Assembly (NCBI GenBank): GCA_020853775.1
Contig: JADYYH010000014.1
Coordinates: 1 to 36,411 of the forward strand
Reading direction: 5' to 3'
DNA length: 36,411 bases
Source: Nitrospira sp.
Lineage (GTDB): Bacteria > Nitrospirota > Nitrospiria > Nitrospirales > Nitrospiraceae
Below, in pieces: positions 24,612 to 36,411 of the stretch. Position 1 is the stretch's first letter. Each line of letters opens with the position of its first letter. The translations under genes were made by a program, and so were the position numbers. The notes below the pieces were generated by a model. It searched no databases and was not told where the DNA came from. It saw only the letters and a program-made list of their open reading frames with translations.

Positions 24612-27600
24612 CTAGGTTACCAAAGTGATGGCGCCTTTGCCCAGCACTTCCTCAATATCGGCGACGAAATGCTCGCTAGGCGTGATCTTCACGTTGGGCA
24701 GGGGAGACGTCCGGGCTTCGATGGTGCCGCCAAGCGCCATGATGAGCGCCACGGTCGACGAACCGGGGTATTTCTGAAACACCTGCCGCAGCATGGGAAG
24801 CCTGGTGGAGGCCGTCGGGCTATCATGCAGGCGAATCATCACCCGCGAGATGCCCTTGTTCTGTAATTCGGCCAGCGGTTCGATCTTGGTCCCGCGCAAC
24901 TTGGTGCCCTTGTCTCCGCGATCGACGGTACCCGTCAATCGCACGACCTGTTCCGGCACGATCATGTCGGCATGGTCTCGGTAGAGGTCGGGAAAGGCTA
25001 TCACTTCTATCACGCCATGTAAATCCTCCAGCGTGATGTACGCCATGCGATCGCCCTTTTTGGTCAGCATGGATTTCACGGCGGTGATGATGCCGCAGAG
25101 TTTCACTTCGCGGCCGTCCGGCACATCGGCGACCTGCGTACTCGTCGTGTTCGCGAAAAGTTGAATGGCGGCTTCGTACCGCGCCAGCGGATGGGCGCTG
25201 ATGTAGAAGCCGGTCAACTCACGTTCATACTTCAACAGTTCCCCTTGGCTCCACTCGGGGACATCGGGCAAGGCCGGATCGGCAAGATTCTGCGGAAGGC
25301 CCCCGACGTCATCACCGAAGATGCTGGTCTGTCCGACGGCGCGTTCCTTTTGAATGCTCACGCCTTCGTCCATCGCCTGATCAAGCACGGCCAGATACTG
25401 TGAGCGCCGTCCTCCCATGGAATCGAAGGCCCCCGCCTTGATCAGGCCTTCCATCATGCGCTTGTTCAGCTTGCGGAGATCGACGCGGCGGAACAGGTCA
25501 AAGAACGAGCGGAACGGGCCGTCCTCTTTGCGCGACTCGATGACCGCTTCGACGGCACCTTCGCCGACATTCTTGATGGCCGCAAGGCCGAACCGGATGC
25601 TCTTGTCGACGACGGCAAAGTCTTTCTGGCTCTGATTCACATCGGGCGGCAGCACGGGGATCCCGAGCCCGCGACATTCGGTGAAGTAGCCGACGATCTT
25701 GTCGGCGTTGCCCATGTCGGTCGTCATTAGGGAGGCCATGAATTCCGTCGGGTAGTGCGCCTTGAGATAAGCCGTGTGGTAGCAGACCACGGCATAGGCG
25801 GCGGCGTGCGATTTGTTGAAGCCGTAGCCGGCGAACTTCTGGATCAGCTCGTAGAGTTTGTCGGCTTTTTTCTCCGCGATTTTTTTCTGTTTGGCGCCTT
25901 CCAGGAATTGGACCCGGAGCTTTTCCATTTCCTCCGGTTTCTTCTTACCCATGGCGCGGCGCAGAATGTCCGCTTGTCCCAGCGAGAATCCGGCCACCTT
26001 GTTGGCGATGGCCATGACCTGCTCCTGATACACGATGACGCCGTACGTGTCCTTCAGGATCGGCTCGAGTTCGGGCATCTCGTAGGCAATAGGAATCTTA
26101 CCCTGTTTGCGCTTGATGAAGTCCGGGATCAGATCCATGGGACCTGGACGATAGAGCGCGATGATGGCGATGATGTCCTCGAACCGGTCGGGCTTGAGGC
26201 CCATCAGCAGATCGCGCATCCCGGAGCTTTCCAACTGAAACACGCCGGTGGTTTTGCCGGAGGAGAGCAGGGAGAAGGTCGCGGGATCGTCGAAGGGTAA
26301 TTGTTCGACTCGTAGCGGGGGCTGATCGGGTCGGCCCTGGTTGACGAGGGACTCGGCGCGCTGAATCATCGTCAACGTTTTCAGGCCGAGAAAGTCGAAT
26401 TTCACCAGGCCGATTTTTTCGACATCACCCATGGAATATTGGGTGACGATTTCGTCCTTGGGGCCTTTATAGAGTGGGACATGCTCCGTGAGCGGCTGGT
26501 CGGAAATCACGATGCCGGCCGCGTGCGTGGAGGCGTGGCGCGCCAGTCCTTCGAGCGACTGCGCGACCGACATGAGTTCTTTGACCTTCACATCTTTGTC
26601 GACGAGTTCCTTGAGGCGCGGTTCCTGTTCGAGCGCCTTGTCGAGCGTCATCTTCAAATCGTCGGGCACGAGTTTGGCGATCCGGTCCACTTCGGCGTAG
26701 GGCATTTCGAGGACGCGGCCGACATCGCGAATGGCGGCCTTGGCCTTCATGGTTCCGAAGGTGATGATTTGCGCGACGTGGTCTTCGCCGTATTTGTGGA
26801 TGACGTAATTGATGACTTCGTCCCGACGATCCATGCAGAAGTCCATGTCGATGTCGGGGAGGGACACGCGCTCGGGGTTCAGGAATCGCTCGAACAGCAG
26901 CGAGTAGACCAGCGGATCGAGGTCGGTGATGCGTAGGGCATAGGCGACAAGACTGCCGGCGGCGGAGCCGCGACCGGGTCCAACGGGAATGCCGCGCGAG
27001 CGCGCGAACTTGATGATGTCCCACACGATGAGAAAGTAGCCGGCGAATCCCATCGAGCAGATCACCGCGATTTCTTCTTTCAGCCGGATCTGGTACGCCA
27101 GCTCGGGGATGGAACTCGGCCGTTCCTTCAGGCGCTGCGCCAGGCCTTCCATCGCGAGTTGCTCGACGTAGGTTTCGCGGGTGAGCCCTTCCGGTACTTT
27201 GAACTGGGGCAGATAGGTTTTGTTGAGCGCCAGTTCGAGGGTGCAGGCTTCGGCAATCTTGACGGTGTTGGAGACAGCCGTCGGCATTTCCTTGAACTCG
27301 GACAGTGCCTGATCGGTGGATTTCACGTAGAGCTGGTCCGTGTCGAACTTCATGCGGTTGGGATCGTTGATCGTTTTCCCCGTCTGCAAGCACAGCATGA
27401 GGTCGTGCGGACGCGAGTCTTCTTTTTTGAGGTAGTGGCAGTCGTTGGTGCCGGCGAGGGGGATGCCGAGTTTCTTATGGATGTCGAGCAGTCCGTCGTT
27501 GGCGATACGCTGGTGTTCCAGCCCGTTGGCTTGCAGTTCGAGGTAATAATTATCCTTGCCGAAAATCTCGCGATACTCGCCCGCGGCCTTGGTCGCGCCG

Positions 27601-28064
27601 GCCAGATCTTTCTGCCCGATGAGATAGGCGACTTCGCCGCTCAGGCAACCGGACAGGCCGATCAGGCCTTCATGGTGCTGCTGTAAAATTTCCTTATCCA
27701 TCCGTGGCTTATAGTAGAAACCTTCAAGATACGCTTTGCTCACGAGTTTGATGAGGTTCTGGTATCCCTTGAGGTTTGTGGCCAGCAGGATGAGATGGTA
27801 GTAGTCGTTGTGCGCGAGGTGTGAATTCTTCTCCAGCCGGCTTCCCGGCGCCATGTAGGCTTCGCACCCGATGATGGGTTTGACGCCATGTTCCCGGGCC
27901 TTCCGGTAAAACTCCACCGCGCCGAACATGTTGCCGTGATCGGTCATCGCGACGGCCGGTTGCCCGAACGACTTCACCTGTTGCATCAGGGGGTCGATCT
28001 GATTGGCGCCGTCGAGAAGGCTGTATTGGGTGTGGAGATGGAGATGGACGAATTGTGATGCCAC
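24612..28064 (-). CDS. dnaE: DNA polymerase III subunit alpha
   Basis: 1150 aa, close to the E. coli length. Replicative polymerase catalytic subunit. Order of domains: PHP (about 1-270, starting FVHLHLHTQYSLLDG), polymerase palm with catalytic PDIDMDFCMDRRDEV (about residue 396), thumb/fingers (GKTTGVFQLESSGM, ALYRPGPMDLIPDFI, YGVIVYQEQVMAIA, GYGFNKSHAAAYAV), tandem HhH region, OB fold (VKLCGIITAVKSMLTKKGDR) and C-terminal tau-binding part. The start is GTG 28064 with no strong Shine-Dalgarno. It is of the DnaE1 type without an internal proofreading exonuclease. Confidence 0.98.
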   Translation of the reverse strand: MASQFVHLHLHTQYSLLDGANQIDPLMQQVKSFGQPAVAMTDHGNMFGAVEFYRKAREHGVKPIIGCEAYMAPGSRLEKNSHLAHNDYYHLILLATNLKGYQNLIKLVSKAYLEGFYYKPRMDKEILQQHHEGLIGLSGCLSGEVAYLIGQKDLAGATKAAGEYREIFGKDNYYLELQANGLEHQRIANDGLLDIHKKLGIPLAGTNDCHYLKKEDSRPHDLMLCLQTGKTINDPNRMKFDTDQLYVKSTDQALSEFKEMPTAVSNTVKIAEACTLELALNKTYLPQFKVPEGLTRETYVEQLAMEGLAQRLKERPSSIPELAYQIRLKEEIAVICSMGFAGYFLIVWDIIKFARSRGIPVGPGRGSAAGSLVAYALRITDLDPLVYSLLFERFLNPERVSLPDIDMDFCMDRRDEVINYVIHKYGEDHVAQIITFGTMKAKAAIRDVGRVLEMPYAEVDRIAKLVPDDLKMTLDKALEQEPRLKELVDKDVKVKELMSVAQSLEGLARHASTHAAGIVISDQPLTEHVPLYKGPKDEIVTQYSMGDVEKIGLVKFDFLGLKTLTMIQRAESLVNQGRPDQPPLRVEQLPFDDPATFSLLSSGKTTGVFQLESSGMRDLLMGLKPDRFEDIIAIIALYRPGPMDLIPDFIKRKQGKIPIAYEMPELEPILKDTYGVIVYQEQVMAIANKVAGFSLGQADILRRAMGKKKPEEMEKLRVQFLEGAKQKKIAEKKADKLYELIQKFAGYGFNKSHAAAYAVVCYHTAYLKAHYPTEFMASLMTTDMGNADKIVGYFTECRGLGIPVLPPDVNQSQKDFAVVDKSIRFGLAAIKNVGEGAVEAVIESRKEDGPFRSFFDLFRRVDLRKLNKRMMEGLIKAGAFDSMGGRRSQYLAVLDQAMDEGVSIQKERAVGQTSIFGDDVGGLPQNLADPALPDVPEWSQGELLKYERELTGFYISAHPLARYEAAIQLFANTTSTQVADVPDGREVKLCGIITAVKSMLTKKGDRMAYITLEDLHGVIEVIAFPDLYRDHADMIVPEQVVRLTGTVDRGDKGTKLRGTKIEPLAELQNKGISRVMIRLHDSPTASTRLPMLRQVFQKYPGSSTVALIMALGGTIEARTSPLPNVKITPSEHFVADIEEVLGKGAITLVT

Positions 28065-28437: not shown

Positions 28438-31400
28438 ATGGCGGAACCAAAAGACGAAAAACCGAAACTGCCGCTGGCCGGTCTGATGGCGCTGCTCTTC
28501 GCGGCGGTGAGCAGCCTGATCATCTATCAGGGGCCGATCAAGACTTGGCGACCGATCGATAAGGAGGCGGAAAAGTCTGCGTCGGTCGTGCGTGATCGTG
28601 TCCAGACGCGGCTCTGGCAGGATCCGTTCGAGGCGGTGGCGAGCCACATTCAGAAAGAGAAGGCTTCGGATGGCAAGGAGCATGGGCACCATACTTCGCC
28701 AGGGTTCATAGAAGGAACTCACGCGACCCATGCGCAATTTCGCTTTCGCTTGATGCCGGTGTTTGTTGATGGAAGTCCCTATGCCAGCGGCGTGGAGTCG
28801 AGGCTGCGTGACCGGTATGCGCTGGTGTCGGCGCTGGGCGCGGCCGGGTATCTGCCGGAGTCCGGAGAATCCATCGGGTACTTCGAATGGAAATCGACCG
28901 ACACGGTGGCCACGATTGTCCCGTCTGAATGGTTCGTGCCGGGCCCCAGGTTATTGAAACCGGACCAGGCCGGACAGCACGAGGCTCAGCCGATTCTGGT
29001 CCTCTGGCTGAAAGAGCAAGATCTCGGCTCGAAGCCGCTGCGCACCCTGACAAGCTTGGTGACGTATCTCAAGAAGGAGATGAACACGACGCCGTCGGCC
29101 TATCGCGTGTTGGGACCCCGCACCTCCGGTTCGCTCAGCGCCATGCTGGAGGAACTCAAGCCGAACTCTACGGCGGCCAATCCGATTCCCACCGCTGCAT
29201 CTGCGCCTCGCCCGGTCGTTCCTTCGGTGTTGATGGGCGCGGAATTGTATTCCTCCTGGGCCACGGCGGCTGACCCGGTACTCCTGGGCGAGACCTCTTT
29301 CCAGCCGACGGCCCGGCCGGTAGAAGATCGTTTCGCGGCCGCCGGCTTGACGTTGATCCGGACGATCGGCAGCGACGACGAATTGGTGAGCGAATTGGTG
29401 CTCGAGTTGAAACGCCGCAAGATCGACGTCACTGCACCATCGAACCGTCCGCATATTGCCTTGATCTCCGAATGGGACACCCTCTATGGACGCTCGTTGC
29501 CGCGCACGTTCGTGGCGGTCGCCGATCGCTGGGCCGAGGCCGCACAGGGACAACCTGTTCAGACGTTGGCGCAGCACCTCCATGCGCTTCGTGATGAGCA
29601 GTACCCGGATTGGGTACATCGGTATTCGTATCTCGCGGGCCTCGACGGGGAATTGCCGCCCAAGGAGAACGGGAAAGAGGCGGGTGGGGCCAAGGGCAAA
29701 TCGGCTGAGAAGGGCGGAGGTGGCGAGGCGGTGGTGGAAGAGACTCCGGTCGGTCGAAGCCAGCTCGACTATCTGCGTCGTCTGGTTGAGCAGTTGAAGC
29801 GGGAGGAAATCTCGTCCAATGGCGAGTTCATGGCAATCGGGGTATTGGGGAGCGACGTCTATGACAAACTCATGATCCTGCAGGCGTTGCGCAAGGATTT
29901 TCCCCACGCTCTGTTTTTCACCACTGACCTGGATTCACGCCTCACTCATGCCACCCAGCTGTCCTGGACGCGCAATCTGGTGGTCGCTTCCCATTTCGGC
30001 CTGGAACTCGATCCGCGGTTGCAGACCCCGATCCCGCCATTCCGCGACAGTTATCAAACCGCGCTGTTTTATTCCGTCTTGCGGGCGGTGGACGCCCTTG
30101 AGGCCGTACCGGAGAAACAGGCGTTGACACTGTCCACCGGCGCGAAGTTTTCCGCAGAGGTGATGCCGCGTCTGTATGAAGTCGGCCGCCATGGCGCGGT
30201 CGATCTCAGTCCGGATCCCCTCCCTCAGGCCGGCGCCCTTCCGGCTCTCCACCTGCTGCGTGCCGATGTGGATCCGGCGACCGGCGCGCTGCGCCTGCCG
30301 TCGCTGCGCACGATCGGCCTTCTTCTTTCCGCGGCGGGGCTGATGTTCCTGTGTGCCCTGCTGATTAACAGCGAGCTCTGGTCGTTGTGCCGGGGGCGTA
30401 GGTTCGCCGGTCTCCTGGCCATACTGGCCCTGGCCGGTGTGATCGTGGTCGCCTTCTTGGCCGGTGTCAGACTGGACGGGACCGGCGGCGAACCGTTTAC
30501 CTTCACCGATGGGGTCAGCGTATGGCCCACGGCGACTCTGCGCCTCCTCGCGTTTGTGCTCTGCGTGATGTTCTTTGCTCATTCGTGGTGGCGGCTGTGG
30601 GAAAGCGATCGAACATTGATTCGGGGATTTCGACTGCTGCGTCTTGATGCCGTGCTCTCGCGCCCGTTCCGTTCGTGGATCGGCATCCATCGTTGGCTGC
30701 CGCCTCTCGTTGGTCATGCGGAAGCACGGGAGCTCTGGCACGAGTATCGTCTACTAGGGGCGTGGCAGGAGCGAGTACGACGCGTGGTGCCGCAGGTACT
30801 GGTGTATGGACTCTTTGGACTCGTGCTGATGCTGCAGTCCGGCTTTCCCGTCATGCCCTGTCGGGGGGGCGCCTGCTTTACGCTCAATTACATCATCCTC
30901 GGATGCAGCGTCGTTGCCATGACGCTCTTGATGTTTTATGTCGTCGATGCGACACGTCTATGCCGCCGCTTGATTACGATCATGATCGGGACCCGGATTG
31001 AATGGCCCCAGCGGCTGCTCGCGCGGGAAGCGGCCAAGTACGAGGTCGAGGAGGCCTACGTGCACGAATGGCTGGGCATTCAGTTCATTGCGAAGCGGAC
31101 GGCGGTCATCAGTGCCATGATCTATTATCCGTTTGTGATTGTCTTCCTGATGGCGGTGGCGCGGCACAGTTACTTCGACCGTTGGGATTTTCCGGCTGGC
31201 TTGCTCGTGATCTTCACCCTGAACGCGCTCTATGCCTTCGGCAACGGCATGCTCTTGCGGCGGTCGGCCGAACACGCGAAGCGCGAAGCGGTGTGGCAGT
31301 TGAAGGACCGGCTCAAGAGTCTGTCCGATGAACCAGTGGGAAAACAGACCAAGCGGCGGCACATCGAGCGCATGGTCGAGGTCATCGAACAAACGCAGGA

Positions 31401-31509
31401 GGGCGCGTTCCTGCCGTTCACCCAACATCCGCTGTTCGGAGCGATTGCCTTGCCGACGGGCGGTACCGGCCTGGTGTTTCTGCTGGAGTATTTGGCCACG
31501 CTCTTCTGA
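28438..31509 (+). CDS. Large membrane protein: ectodomain plus about seven C-terminal spans, unknown function
   Basis: 1023 aa. An N-terminal hydrophobic helix (about residues 13-31) anchors a region of about 590 residues expected outside the cytoplasm. That region contains repeated alpha/beta elements such as RPHIALISEWDTLYGRSLPR and IGVLGSDVYDKLMILQALRK, then FFTTDLDSRLTHATQLSW and LVVASHFGLELDP, resembling periplasmic-binding/ANF-receptor folds. A Lys/Gly-rich low-complexity linker lies near residues 405-430. Seven hydrophobic segments follow at about 624-645, 656-677, 699-719, 782-803, 816-838, 886-908 and 917-940, then a charged helical tail. I know no function for the family. Upstream is the divergent dnaE gene; downstream are a TPR gene and a PLD-like gene. 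Confidence 0.75.
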   Translation: MAEPKDEKPKLPLAGLMALLFAAVSSLIIYQGPIKTWRPIDKEAEKSASVVRDRVQTRLWQDPFEAVASHIQKEKASDGKEHGHHTSPGFIEGTHATHAQFRFRLMPVFVDGSPYASGVESRLRDRYALVSALGAAGYLPESGESIGYFEWKSTDTVATIVPSEWFVPGPRLLKPDQAGQHEAQPILVLWLKEQDLGSKPLRTLTSLVTYLKKEMNTTPSAYRVLGPRTSGSLSAMLEELKPNSTAANPIPTAASAPRPVVPSVLMGAELYSSWATAADPVLLGETSFQPTARPVEDRFAAAGLTLIRTIGSDDELVSELVLELKRRKIDVTAPSNRPHIALISEWDTLYGRSLPRTFVAVADRWAEAAQGQPVQTLAQHLHALRDEQYPDWVHRYSYLAGLDGELPPKENGKEAGGAKGKSAEKGGGGEAVVEETPVGRSQLDYLRRLVEQLKREEISSNGEFMAIGVLGSDVYDKLMILQALRKDFPHALFFTTDLDSRLTHATQLSWTRNLVVASHFGLELDPRLQTPIPPFRDSYQTALFYSVLRAVDALEAVPEKQALTLSTGAKFSAEVMPRLYEVGRHGAVDLSPDPLPQAGALPALHLLRADVDPATGALRLPSLRTIGLLLSAAGLMFLCALLINSELWSLCRGRRFAGLLAILALAGVIVVAFLAGVRLDGTGGEPFTFTDGVSVWPTATLRLLAFVLCVMFFAHSWWRLWESDRTLIRGFRLLRLDAVLSRPFRSWIGIHRWLPPLVGHAEARELWHEYRLLGAWQERVRRVVPQVLVYGLFGLVLMLQSGFPVMPCRGGACFTLNYIILGCSVVAMTLLMFYVVDATRLCRRLITIMIGTRIEWPQRLLAREAAKYEVEEAYVHEWLGIQFIAKRTAVISAMIYYPFVIVFLMAVARHSYFDRWDFPAGLLVIFTLNALYAFGNGMLLRRSAEHAKREAVWQLKDRLKSLSDEPVGKQTKRRHIERMVEVIEQTQEGAFLPFTQHPLFGAIALPTGGTGLVFLLEYLATLF

Positions 31510-31569
31510 GAAGGGCGGTGCCGCATAAGGACGATCGGCGTCAGGGAGGGGAGGAAGGAACAGCTATCC

Positions 31570-32381
31570 ATGAGCAAGAGATCTCCACGCACCGGCACAG
31601 AGGGGAAGCGGCTTGCCAGGCCGGCGCCTACGCATCCCGTTCTCAAAGAGAGCCACACCCTGGAACAGGCTCAAGCCTTGATCTCCCGTGCTTGGGAAGC
31701 CACGACCGGCCGGCAAGCGGTGGCGTTTGCTCGCCAGGCGCTGGAGCTCTATCCCGACTGCGCAGATGCCTACACGGTGTTGGCGGAAACTCAGGCGCGG
31801 TCGGCAGAGGAGGCCTGCCTCCTGTATCAGCAAGGCGTGGACGCCGGAGTCTCGGCGAAGCCGTGTTTCTTCAGCATGCGGGGCACTTCTGGGGATTGAT
31901 GAAGACCAGGCCCTATATGCGCGCGCGTCAGGGCTTGGCCGATTGCTTGTGGGCTCTCGGCCGGAAAGAGGAGTCCATCGCGCATGGCGAAGCCTTGTTG
32001 GAACTGAACCCTGATGACAACCAAGGCATTCGTTACGGGTTGCTGAACCGCTACCTTGTCGTGGGAGATGATGCCGCAGCAGAACGTCTTCTGCGTCGGT
32101 ATACGCATGATTCCTCTGCGGCGTTTCTCTGGAGCCGTGTCTTGCTTGACCTTCGCCGAGGAGACCAGGTCGCAGCAAAGAAGAATTTGCAAGCGGCGAT
32201 GCAAGGCAATCGGCATGTGGCCGACTTGTTCACTGGACAACGGAAACCACCGGCTTGCTTGCCGAAACAGGTTTCACCGGGAGACCGGCATGAGGCGGCC
32301 CTGTATTTTGCGGGATCCGCCGAGGCCTGGCTCGCTTCATCGGATGCGATGGAATGGCTGATGGAGCAATTGACGGAGTGA
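31570..32381 (+). pseudogene. TPR protein, frameshifted
   Basis: Two frames join into about 270 aa. The first (from ATG 31570) has LEQAQALISRAWEATTGRQA, AFARQALELYPDCADAYTVL and ARSAEEACLLYQQGVDAG. The second continues LGEAVFLQHAGHFWGLMKTR, PYMRARQGLADCLWALGRKE, LLELNPDDNQGIRYGLLNRY and further TPR helices. The switch lies at about 31848-31850 (GCCGGAGTCTCGGC), where one base, or four bases as in GGAGAGAGTCTC, appear to be missing. No other damage is visible, so decay is recent or the call is an artefact. The GHFWG, RPYMRAR and LNPxDNQGxRY motifs mark a conserved TPR family of unknown function. Confidence 0.8.
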
Positions 32382-32526: not shown

Positions 32527-32657
32527 ATGGTTGTTTGTGCCTACTGCCGCGCCGTTTCTGCTGAGCACACCGCCGAAGGTTGTTTTCCTCCGTCGTTCGC
32601 ATCGCCAGCCCGTCACAGCCGTGGGATCGTGTTATTACCCGTACGAGAGGTGTTTCC

Positions 32658-33650
32658 GTGTTTCGCCAATTCAATTCCATTCTCAGGGCCTGTCTCCGCC
32701 ATGCGACAGGTAGCCTATCTCATATGGTCATCGTCGCGATGAGCGCAGGCATTGCGCTCCTTCTACCGGTCGGAGCCAGGCAGTTGCTGTCGTTCTGGTC
32801 ACGTGTCGAACAGAACCCGGTGTCACTGGTGGTGGCCGAAATGATGACCGCCGTGCTGTTCATTGCCGCCTTCACCTATCTCCATCGCAGTCGGCAGGAT
32901 CGAATGCTCGCCCAAACCGCGCTTGGCGCTGGCCTGGTTTCGTTTTTCCCGCGGCCCGGGGTAGACGCCCGCCGGCGCATTCAAACCTTGAAAGACGAGC
33001 AGGGCAACGGTCGTTCAGTGATGGTCATCGGATCCAGCGGAACCGGAACGCTGGTCGATCAGGTCGGGGATCTGTCGTCCATCCTCGACACCTGTCTGGA
33101 GGCCAAGATTCTCCTGGTGAATCCCTTTGATACGCAGGCGCGCACGCGTATCCAGGCTTTGGCGCATCCCGCGTCCCCCTATCCGACCTTTCGGGAAGAG
33201 GTCCGCCAGAGCATCGCGCTGCTCAAGCGTCTGAAAGCCATCGGCAAGGTGGTGAAGTTGAAGTTGTATGCTGATGCGCCGTTGGTCAAACTGGTCATCT
33301 GGGGTGACTATCTGTGGTTGCAGCATTATCATGCCAATCTGGAACGTCAGACCATGCCCGAATATGTCCTGCAACGAAACCGCAAGGAGCAGGGCCTCTA
33401 TACCTTCTATGCCCAGTACTTCCTGCAACGGTGGGAGAGTCCTGAATTGCCGGAGTACGATCTGGATACCGACGAACTGGTGTATCGCAGCCGAACCGGT
33501 CAGGAGATCCGGCGGGAGCCAGTCGAGATCGGGGTTGGTGGAGCGACGGGACCGTGCGACGACGTAGCCCATCTGGATGCTCACGAGGCCTTTCGATTGC
33601 TGCATGCGCCGGGCCCGTACATGCCGGTTCGCGGATACGACGTCGAGTAG
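32658..33650 (+). CDS. Membrane-anchored PLD-like protein without HKD motifs
   Basis: About 330 aa from GTG 32658, which has GAGAGG about 9 nt upstream; the frame is open from TTG 32580, and ATG 32724 is another option. Two membrane helices (MVIVAMSAGIALLLPVGARQ, VVAEMMTAVLFIAAFTYL) lead into a cytoplasmic domain. That domain has MVIGSSGTGTLVDQ, AKILLVNPFDTQARTRIQAL, VVKLKLYADAPLVKLVIWGD and GLYTFYAQYFLQRWESPELP, the strand order of a phospholipase D-like half-domain. The catalytic H-x-K is missing, so it may bind rather than cleave phosphoesters. It shares orientation with the two preceding genes; function unknown. Confidence 0.65.
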   Translation: MFRQFNSILRACLRHATGSLSHMVIVAMSAGIALLLPVGARQLLSFWSRVEQNPVSLVVAEMMTAVLFIAAFTYLHRSRQDRMLAQTALGAGLVSFFPRPGVDARRRIQTLKDEQGNGRSVMVIGSSGTGTLVDQVGDLSSILDTCLEAKILLVNPFDTQARTRIQALAHPASPYPTFREEVRQSIALLKRLKAIGKVVKLKLYADAPLVKLVIWGDYLWLQHYHANLERQTMPEYVLQRNRKEQGLYTFYAQYFLQRWESPELPEYDLDTDELVYRSRTGQEIRREPVEIGVGGATGPCDDVAHLDAHEAFRLLHAPGPYMPVRGYDVE

Positions 33651-33760
33651 GCCGCATCCGCGTGAGAGGTTTGATCGTTCTTTCCGGTACAATGGCTGCA
33701 TGTGTCGTTGTACGATGACGGTCGTGTGGATGCAGGAATCCGGGGATGGAGCGACGAGCG

Positions 33761-34945
33761 ATGAATGATGCAGTGGAACGACGTGCAGCCGCCTCGGTGA
33801 CGGCTGTGTTTTCGTACGGCTTCCGCCCGTTTTTTCTGGGCGCCGCATGCTTTGCAGGCCTGGCTGTTCCGGCCTGGATCGTCATGCTGTCGCTGGGGAT
33901 TGGTTCGACGGGTCTGGCTGCGCCTCGTGAATGGCATGTGCACGAAATGTTGTTCGGATTTCTGCCTGCCGTGATTACCGGGTTTGTGCTGACGGCGGTC
34001 CCTAATTGGACGGATCGTCCGGCCATCCACGGGCGGGAATTGGCAGGGCTGTTCGGCCTGTGGCTCGCGGGTCGTGTTGTGATGGCGGGGCCGTGGGTGC
34101 CGCCGGTCTTCGCCGCCATCGTCGATGCGGCCTATCTGCTGGTGTTGGCAGGAATCCTGTGGCGTGAGATTGCAGGGGGAAAAAGTTGGAGTCATGCGCC
34201 GATCGGCATCCTGCTGAGTTTTTATGCGGTCGCGAATCTGCTCTTTCATGCGTGTGAGCTCAACGGCGTAGCGACGGATCTGCCGGAGCGCCTGGCGTTG
34301 GGGCTGGACATGACGCTGCTGGCTTTCATCGGCGGACGCGTGACGCCGAATTTTACGCGCGAGTTTCTGGTTCAGGCCCGCAGGCCGGAGAAGCCGGCGC
34401 GGTTTACCCATCCTGACCTGGCGGCAATAGGAATGATCGCGTCCGCCTCGGCCGTCTGGGCGATATGGTCGCAGGGGACCGTGGCCGGGGGACTTCTGAT
34501 CCTCGCCGGAGTCCTCAATCTCGTTCGCCTCTCGCGGTGGTACGGCTGGTGTACCTGGCAGGAGCCGCTGGTGTTTGTGTTGCACTGGGGTTATGCGTGG
34601 CTTGTGCTGGCGCTCATTCTGCTCGGGTGCGCCGCGCTCGGCGTTGGCCTGCCGAAGGAAGATGCGGTGCATGCCCTGACCACAGGCGCGGTAGGCGTCA
34701 TGACCTTGGGCATTATGACTCGTGCGAGTTTGGGGCATACGGGGCGCACAAGGCATGCCGACCCGGCAACGGTCGCGATGTATGTACTGGTCACCTGCGG
34801 GGCCATCCTACGAGTGTTCGGGGTGGGTATCGGTCTGCCGACCGGTCTCGTACTCGGTGTTGCCGCGTTCTGTTGGAGCGGCGCGTATCTCCTGTTCGCG
34901 ATGGTTTATGGTCCGTACCTGCTGCGACCGAGTCAGGAGGAGTAG
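33761..34945 (+). CDS. nnrS: NnrS family membrane protein
   Basis: 394 aa from ATG 33761 (GGAG 9 nt upstream; ATG 33746 adds five residues). NnrS is a heme- and copper-containing polytopic membrane protein that protects cells from nitric oxide. Family motifs are present: YGFRPFFLGA near residue 20, WHVHEMLFGFLPAVITGFVL, TAVPNWTDRP, GGRVTPNFTREF and LHWGYAWLVL, spread over about twelve hydrophobic segments. The conserved His of WHVHEM and of LGHTGR are likely metal ligands. It stands alone here. A hemerythrin with possible NO affinity lies 23 kb away. Confidence 0.93.
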   Translation: MNDAVERRAAASVTAVFSYGFRPFFLGAACFAGLAVPAWIVMLSLGIGSTGLAAPREWHVHEMLFGFLPAVITGFVLTAVPNWTDRPAIHGRELAGLFGLWLAGRVVMAGPWVPPVFAAIVDAAYLLVLAGILWREIAGGKSWSHAPIGILLSFYAVANLLFHACELNGVATDLPERLALGLDMTLLAFIGGRVTPNFTREFLVQARRPEKPARFTHPDLAAIGMIASASAVWAIWSQGTVAGGLLILAGVLNLVRLSRWYGWCTWQEPLVFVLHWGYAWLVLALILLGCAALGVGLPKEDAVHALTTGAVGVMTLGIMTRASLGHTGRTRHADPATVAMYVLVTCGAILRVFGVGIGLPTGLVLGVAAFCWSGAYLLFAMVYGPYLLRPSQEE

Positions 34946-35666: not shown

Positions 35667-36411
35667 TCACGAGATATTGAGCCAGAGAGCGAGGCAGCGG
35701 ATCTGGACAGCGGCGAGGAAGGATTTGGTGTTTTTGGCGTCACGCGTGGCGATACCACGCCATCTTTTGAGCATCAGGAACGCGTTTTCGATCAGGTGGC
35801 GCAGTTTATAGAGCGCCTCATCGTAGGGTCTCTGATCTTTTCTGTTTCTCTTCGGCGGGATGACAGCGCTCATGCCTTGGGCGGCAGCCTGTTCAAGGAT
35901 GGCGTCGGTATCGTATCCCTTGTCCGCGATCAGATGATCGGCATCGATCCCCTCGATCAAGCGGCTTGCCTGTGTGCAATCCGCGCGGGTACCTTCTGTA
36001 ACAACAACTCGGACCGGCATACCAAACGCATCCACGGCCAGATGTATTTTTGTGTTGAGCCCCCTTTTGTACGGCTCATATCCTGATTGCCGCCTTTGGC
36101 TCCGGCAGCGTGCGGGTGAACCTTGCAGTGGCTGGCGTCGATCATCAGCCATTCGTAATCGGGCGCATCGATCAAAACTTCCAGAAGACTTTCCCAAATT
36201 CCCTTGTCCCGCCAACGAATGAAGCGACGGTGCGTGTTGCTCCATCCGCCGTACTCCGACGGCAGATCGCGCCACGGTGCGCCCGTTCTCACAATCCAGA
36301 ACACCGCGTTGATAAACAGGCGATTGTCTTTGGCCATGCCACCCCAGACACCCTTGCGTCCTGGCAACTGAGGTTCCAGCAACGCCCAGGTTTCATCGGA
36401 AATGTCGTGGC
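35667..36411 (-). CDS. IS5-family transposase, two frames joined by -1 frameshift, 5' partial
   Basis: Frame A (36411 down to 35957) reads HDISDETWALLEPQLPGRKG, FWIVRTGAPWRDLPSEYGGW and MIDASHCKVHPHAAGAKGGN (first catalytic Asp). Frame B (to 35667) reads LNTKIHLAVDAFGMPVRVVV, ADKGYDTD (second Asp) and FLMLKRWRGIATRDAK, with the final Glu in RHLIENAF. The joined DDE protein matches IS427-group elements, which normally use a frameshift. The switch is at the AAAAGGGGG tract. Perhaps one or two N-terminal residues lie beyond the window edge. No inactivating mutation is seen. Confidence 0.9.
36060..36068 (-). other. Probable -1 frameshift site of the IS5 transposase
   Basis: On the minus strand AAAAGGGGG spans 36068-36060. 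Frame A reads ACA AAA GGG GGC, and frame B (CTC AAC ACA) begins right after the G run in the -1 register. Adjacent A and G homopolymers allow tRNA or polymerase slippage. The protein homology changes frame at this point. Confidence 0.6.

Follow-up and report, generated by a model that had tools for sequence, protein, structure and literature searches.

The window analysed here comprises 36,411 nucleotides and represents one contig (C14) of a 4.25-Mb Nitrospira genome. On its forward strand (positions 28438 to 31509) the open reading frame list showed a coding sequence (CDS) for a receptor-like protein of 1023 amino acids (aa), counted from its ATG, which homology searches, alignment and tree assigned to lineage A of an unnamed protein family. 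Upstream, in divergent orientation, lies dnaE (DNA polymerase III alpha; 24612 to 28064, reverse strand), identified by reading its translation. Downstream, on the forward strand, the receptor gene is followed by the remnants of a TPR gene (31525 to 32378), a gene for a two-span protein that the original prediction called PLD-like (32580 to 33650; no family match above the cut-off) and the gene for NnrS (33746 to 34945; PF05940, E 7e-105). ORFs in two frames at the end of the window (35667 to 36409) resemble an IS5 transposase by eye.

The start of the receptor protein, MAEPKDEKPKLP, is kept across its lineage in the alignment, homologues are found over the full length and dN/dS values for pairs of close relatives are 0.15-0.19. 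The CDS is therefore a real gene under purifying selection. Its best named matches are in two Nitrospira metagenome-assembled genomes (L032, L033), with 79-83% identity over the full length. A scan of genome contigs with short exact peptides of the 1023-aa protein returned three close relatives. No family in Pfam, NCBIfam or PADLOC matches the whole protein, and we found no description of the family in the open-access literature. The family is well conserved and unannotated in Nitrospira-type bacteria.

The protein begins with a membrane anchor (residues 11-29; 28468 to 28524; Kyte-Doolittle 2.33), which had been predicted and is seen in 23 of 23 relatives. It is followed by a conserved linker, SRP...RLWQDPF..AV (residues 33-70; 28534 to 28647), with invariant R38, P39, R58, L59, W60, D62 and P63. 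The same linker is found in a fragment from a Methylosinus plasmid described below. The original prediction placed an ectodomain of about 590 residues behind the anchor; this anatomy was borne out, with the ectodomain extending to about residue 620. Its central part, residues 104-600 (28747 to 30237), probably adopts a type I periplasmic-binding (LivK/ANF-receptor) fold, as judged from profile-profile comparison, and 55 of its 497 alignment columns are invariant throughout two old lineages of paralogues. Two motifs already highlighted in the original prediction are among the best-conserved sequences of the family: IGVLGSDVYDKL (residues 467-478; 29836 to 29871; invariant G468, D473, Y475 and D476) and FFTTDLDSRL (residues 493-502; 29914 to 29943); a third, LVVASHFGLEL (residues 514-524), is conserved as well. 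A further family signature in the alignment is YSYLAGLDGELP (residues 396-407; 29623 to 29658).

Comparison of the ectodomain profile with an alignment of LivK-type binding proteins collected from the same phylum gave a score of 35.3, compared to a mean of 15.1 and a maximum of 22.3 for 100 column-shuffled LivK controls and a best score of 26.6 among 24 unrelated families. The match was reproduced with 57 sequences (35.8) and with the two halves of the LivK set (30.7 and 36.6), which supports the binding-protein-like character proposed for this region. Tested singly, the segments 179-278, 253-343, 293-403 and 428-543 match LivK colinearly. In this pairing the stretch LVLWLKEQD...GPRTSG corresponds to a strand and the (F/G)G.TSS turn of LivK (GPRTSG: residues 226-231; 29113 to 29130; S230 invariant), and the next matched stretch runs from there to IGSDDEL; SSWATA (residues 272-277; 29251 to 29268) aligns with (Y)PAST. 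The stretch IALISEWDTLYGR is paired with IAVLHTDTVYG, with EWDTLYGR (residues 345-352; 29470 to 29493; invariant D347, Y350 and R352) on the LivK pattern avl..DT.YG, and region 467-500 is paired with a strand of the second lobe. Among single segments, 293-403 scores highest (31.0 versus a shuffle maximum of 22.2); this segment, 253-343 and also 458-600 score above all of their own shuffles. For 179-278 and 428-543 the score stays at or below the best of 40 shuffles of the same segment; part of the argument is therefore carried by the order in which the segments match.

On its own scale, hhalign gives the LivK match a probability of 13-18%, and a second type I family (PF04392) scores 20-22, barely over its shuffles; for these reasons we rate the fold as probable and not as proved. 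Direct Pfam searches at E<=1 (PF13458, PF01094 and others) found no match, neither in the protein itself nor in 23 family members, and sequence and profile searches of the PDB returned chance-level matches only. Only four sequences, about 80% identical, entered the AlphaFold models of the full protein and of the ectodomain, whose pLDDT of 32-34 is too low for use. The ectodomain thus resembles the profile of the LivK/leucine-type binding proteins (PF13458, Peripla_BP_6) in colinear segments, but lies below Pfam detection, is much larger and carries insertions. In contrast to LivK, the receptor protein is membrane-bound and carries a fused domain with several spans, and its lineage A members have no linked ABC transporter.

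In the alignment of 57 sequences S230 and Y350 are invariant, position 276 is T or S, and D313 is present in 56 sequences. The class C amino-acid motif of mGlu1 consists of Ser165, Thr188, Asp208 and Tyr236 (PMC2680970). Transferred through the LivK alignment, and not through an aligned mGlu sequence, S230, T276, D313 and Y350 would recall the positions of this motif, which we take as a lead that the ligand is possibly amino-acid-like. The conservation of 55 of 497 ectodomain columns across two old paralogous lineages suggests one conserved ligand for both.

The C-terminal part shows hydrophobic peaks near residues 634, 668, 704, 792, 827, 899 and 931, each in 22-23 of 23 relatives. The corresponding spans, assigned by hydropathy and supported by the relatives, cover residues 625-643 (30310 to 30366), 659-677 (30412 to 30468), 695-713 (30520 to 30576), 787-805 (30796 to 30852), 818-836 (30889 to 30945), 889-907 (31102 to 31158) and 922-940 (31201 to 31257). 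A weaker segment near residue 1007 (residues 998-1016; 31429 to 31485) reaches the threshold in 16 of 23 relatives and may be an eighth span or a re-entrant segment. The "about seven" spans of the original prediction are hence seven robust ones (at least 22 of 23 relatives), possibly eight by hydropathy. Loop charges in the relatives are +1.3 to +3.3 on the inner side and -3.3, +0.7 and -1.7 on the outer side. From this charge bias one would expect the short loops to lie outside together with the ectodomain, and three long loops (715-781, 838-888 and 942-996) are predicted to lie inside.

In the membrane domain, 16 of 406 columns are invariant in the family alignment, and most of these residues lie in or beside the outer loops. 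The first such loop, GGEPF..(D/E)G(V/I)S.WPT..LR (residues 684-702; 30487 to 30543), contains invariant E685, P686, G692, S694, W696, P697 and R702; the loop PCRG (residues 807-810; 30856 to 30867) contributes P807, R809 and G810, and RHSYFDRW (residues 909-916; 31162 to 31185) contributes R909 and D914. Searches of the membrane part with 23 relatives at E<=1 revealed no meaningful or consistent Pfam match, including transporter and 7TM families, 7tm_3 and PF07695.

A polar outer patch of this kind would be appropriate for docking or gating, as expected for a binding-protein-fused transporter or a ligand-gated channel in which the flytrap domain delivers a solute to, or gates its passage through, the 7-8-span domain. 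Fusions of binding proteins to permeases or channels are established, with GlnPQ and GluR0 as examples, and provide a precedent. Against this reading, none of the Pfam transporters matches the membrane domain consistently, the score of this domain with LivH/LivM (PF02653) is 15.3 and below those of unrelated families (up to 23.9), so that the permease of a LivKHM-type ABC importer is not found in it, and no gene for an ABC ATPase or a second permease adjoins lineage A copies. We consider a transporter or channel rather unlikely.

A search with the single protein detected matches in 64 of 295 sampled Nitrospirota genomes, and the family profile in 87 of 395. The profile-positive genomes belong to 13 of 169 genera, mostly from two families, plus one distant genome. 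A marginal profile match in one genome (G231; E 0.002) turned out to be a sensor kinase and is at chance level over 395 genomes. A tree of 57 sequences separates two old lineages, A and B, and some atypical copies. Lineage A includes the copy of the window; lineage B includes a paralogue in the same genome (C3:46143-49406), about 30-37% identical. A truncated N-terminal copy is encoded on plasmid pMSC49b of Methylosinus sp. C49 (L077:13908-14366), near Fic and WGR genes, and the family therefore reaches beyond Nitrospirota. This fragment was the sole match in the plasmid searches, and the family was absent from the viral contigs and phages searched.

The original prediction grouped the receptor gene with the TPR and PLD-like genes in a signalling or defence locus. 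This grouping was not upheld. The TPR gene is frameshifted near 31839-31848, with tblastn matches in two frames; it is also frameshifted in one relative (L036), and of eleven relatives in the comparison, six (L038-L042 and L045) yielded no match to it. It is either decaying or mis-sequenced, and it is not part of a unit with the receptor gene. The PLD-like protein is an independent gene, found in 61 of 295 genomes and there mostly far from the receptor gene or in genomes without one. Both genes stand beside the receptor gene in one genus only, within a longer block with dnaE and nnrS, and lineage A copies of other genera have different neighbours. The expected conserved linkage with these two downstream genes across homologues thus failed to appear, with neighbours in lineage A being shared mainly within the genus. 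In three otherwise differing genera, a distance of about 3 kb at most separates NnrS from receptor copies (window 33746-34945, L046:4251-5474 and L050:11978-13162); this proximity may represent an old linkage.

Lineage B genes follow selO: among 50 genomes with both genes, the two lie on one contig and no more than 5 kb apart in 47, and no more than 500 bp apart in 36. A phospholipase/carboxylesterase-type gene comes next, usually after about 10 bp, with another alpha/beta hydrolase gene behind it. This row is stable and operon-like in several genera; at L059:4727-12695 and syntenic loci it consists of selO, (a glucose/sorbosone dehydrogenase gene), the lineage B paralogue, the phospholipase/carboxylesterase gene and the second hydrolase gene. 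SelO has been tied to redox homeostasis (PMC10364804). A co-dependence of SelO and the receptor was considered and rejected, as SelO is found in 88 of 98 genomes of the bacterial family, including receptor-less ones. The esterase-type gene next to lineage B, together with the charged and aromatic invariants (E685, R702, R809, R909, D914 and W696) clustered in or beside the outer loops, would be in line with an outer-face membrane enzyme that has the flytrap domain as its regulator or supplier, with lipids or precursors of the cell wall as examples of a substrate. We regard such an enzyme as improbable; the protein shows no likeness to known membrane enzyme families and no recognised catalytic motif.

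The atypical copies have other surroundings. The most distant and divergent one (L053) has a gene for a class III cyclase with a fused TPR-S domain (cyclase-TPR-S; L053:11333-12760) 188 bp downstream, which is a single case. Another (L052) lies 119 bp from a gene for an MBL protein that resembles defence MBL effectors. At L052:2869-7794 there is a row of patatin-like, 653-aa (some relatives are annotated as S8 peptidase) and MBL-fold genes, which is likely a mobile defence-type cassette. Its S8-like and MBL genes recur on plasmids of Rhizobium, Hymenobacter, Deinococcus and Methylorubrum, with patatin, DUF2235, SIR2, AAA and CBASS genes as neighbours. Five annotated plasmid stretches with the S8-like and MBL genes have no protein of the receptor family, and the cassette is therefore probably an independent mobile element.

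The position of the L052 copy beside this cassette and the truncated copy on the Methylosinus plasmid are the two points in favour of the original idea of a defence role, with the receptor protein as the sensing part of an anti-phage or another conflict system. They are set against the recurrence of the S8-like and MBL genes on many plasmids without a receptor gene in the five annotated stretches, the lack of family matches in viral contigs and phages, and the stable housekeeping contexts of lineages A and B. The ectodomain is moreover conserved and not diversifying, as seen from its invariant columns and the dN/dS values. Defence models match neither the receptor protein nor its two downstream neighbours, and PADLOC matches near atypical copies are sporadic, as are their defence-like neighbours in general, which does not amount to the proposed enrichment near defence genes. 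We therefore consider a role in defence very improbable: the receptor gene is a housekeeping gene in Nitrospira and its relatives and does not look like a defence gene.

The best explanation, in which our confidence and our doubt are about equal, is a membrane-anchored housekeeping ligand sensor that acts on a separate cytoplasmic partner. This reading is based on the flytrap domain over a helix bundle, the invariant polar outer face and the three long inner loops. The two-lobed LivK/ANF-type periplasmic domain would close on a small ligand, possibly an amino-acid-like one. The bundle beneath it, of seven or perhaps eight helices, could receive this closure through the polar outer-end residues E685, S694, W696, R702, R809, R909 and D914, and the three long cytoplasmic loops would then relay the change to the partner. 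We infer this coupling and the signalling output from the arrangement of conserved residues. Further points counted for a sensor are the lack of linked ABC genes in lineage A, a membrane part unlike LivH/LivM and the cyclase-TPR-S gene next to the L053 copy. On the other side, the protein has no cytoplasmic signalling domain, the family neighbourhoods reveal no constant partner gene, and SelO and the esterases next to lineage B do not belong to the classical signalling proteins.

Several known receptors resemble such a sensor in part. The 7TMR-DISM proteins (PF07695/PF07696) also combine a bacterial outer domain with about seven spans; however, their outer fold is different, PF07695 has no match in the receptor protein or elsewhere in this genome (G000), and the receptor protein is without a cytoplasmic output domain. 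Sensor kinases with type I binding domains, such as a 739-aa ORF (L126), have by eye a similar binding-protein-like outer sensory domain, but cross the membrane once or twice and are fused to a kinase, whereas the receptor protein has neither a kinase nor another known output domain. A flytrap domain on a seven-helix bundle counts as a hallmark of the class C receptors of eukaryotes. With these G protein-coupled receptors (mGlu, GABA-B and taste receptors) the protein shares, by analogy only, the layout of an outer flytrap followed by about seven spans, and its S/T/D/Y positions may resemble their amino-acid motif. In contrast to them, it has an N-terminal anchor, a possible eighth segment and no cysteine-rich linker, and its membrane domain is unlike any Pfam 7TM family. 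The analogy to 7TM receptors drawn in the original prediction consequently holds for the layout, with seven robust spans and one doubtful one, and does not extend to homology with 7tm_3, for which 23 members gave no match at E<=1.

The combination of a flytrap domain and a seven-span bundle in one bacterial family appears undescribed in the open-access papers and the libraries searched, its parts being of known kinds. Tentatively, and with more doubt than confidence, we propose that these proteins are bacterial receptors of class C layout, of independent bacterial origin, which would bind amino-acid-like ligands and signal without a fused kinase or cyclase. If this is true, the same layout, with an unrelated membrane part, would have evolved convergently, and the family would be suited to testing how the closure of a domain is transmitted to a helix bundle. 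For the bacteria themselves, the family represents a conserved, unannotated gene in most sampled Nitrospira-type nitrite oxidisers, with a paralogue in the SelO-esterase row, and it gives a handle on environmental sensing by these slow-growing and environmentally important organisms.
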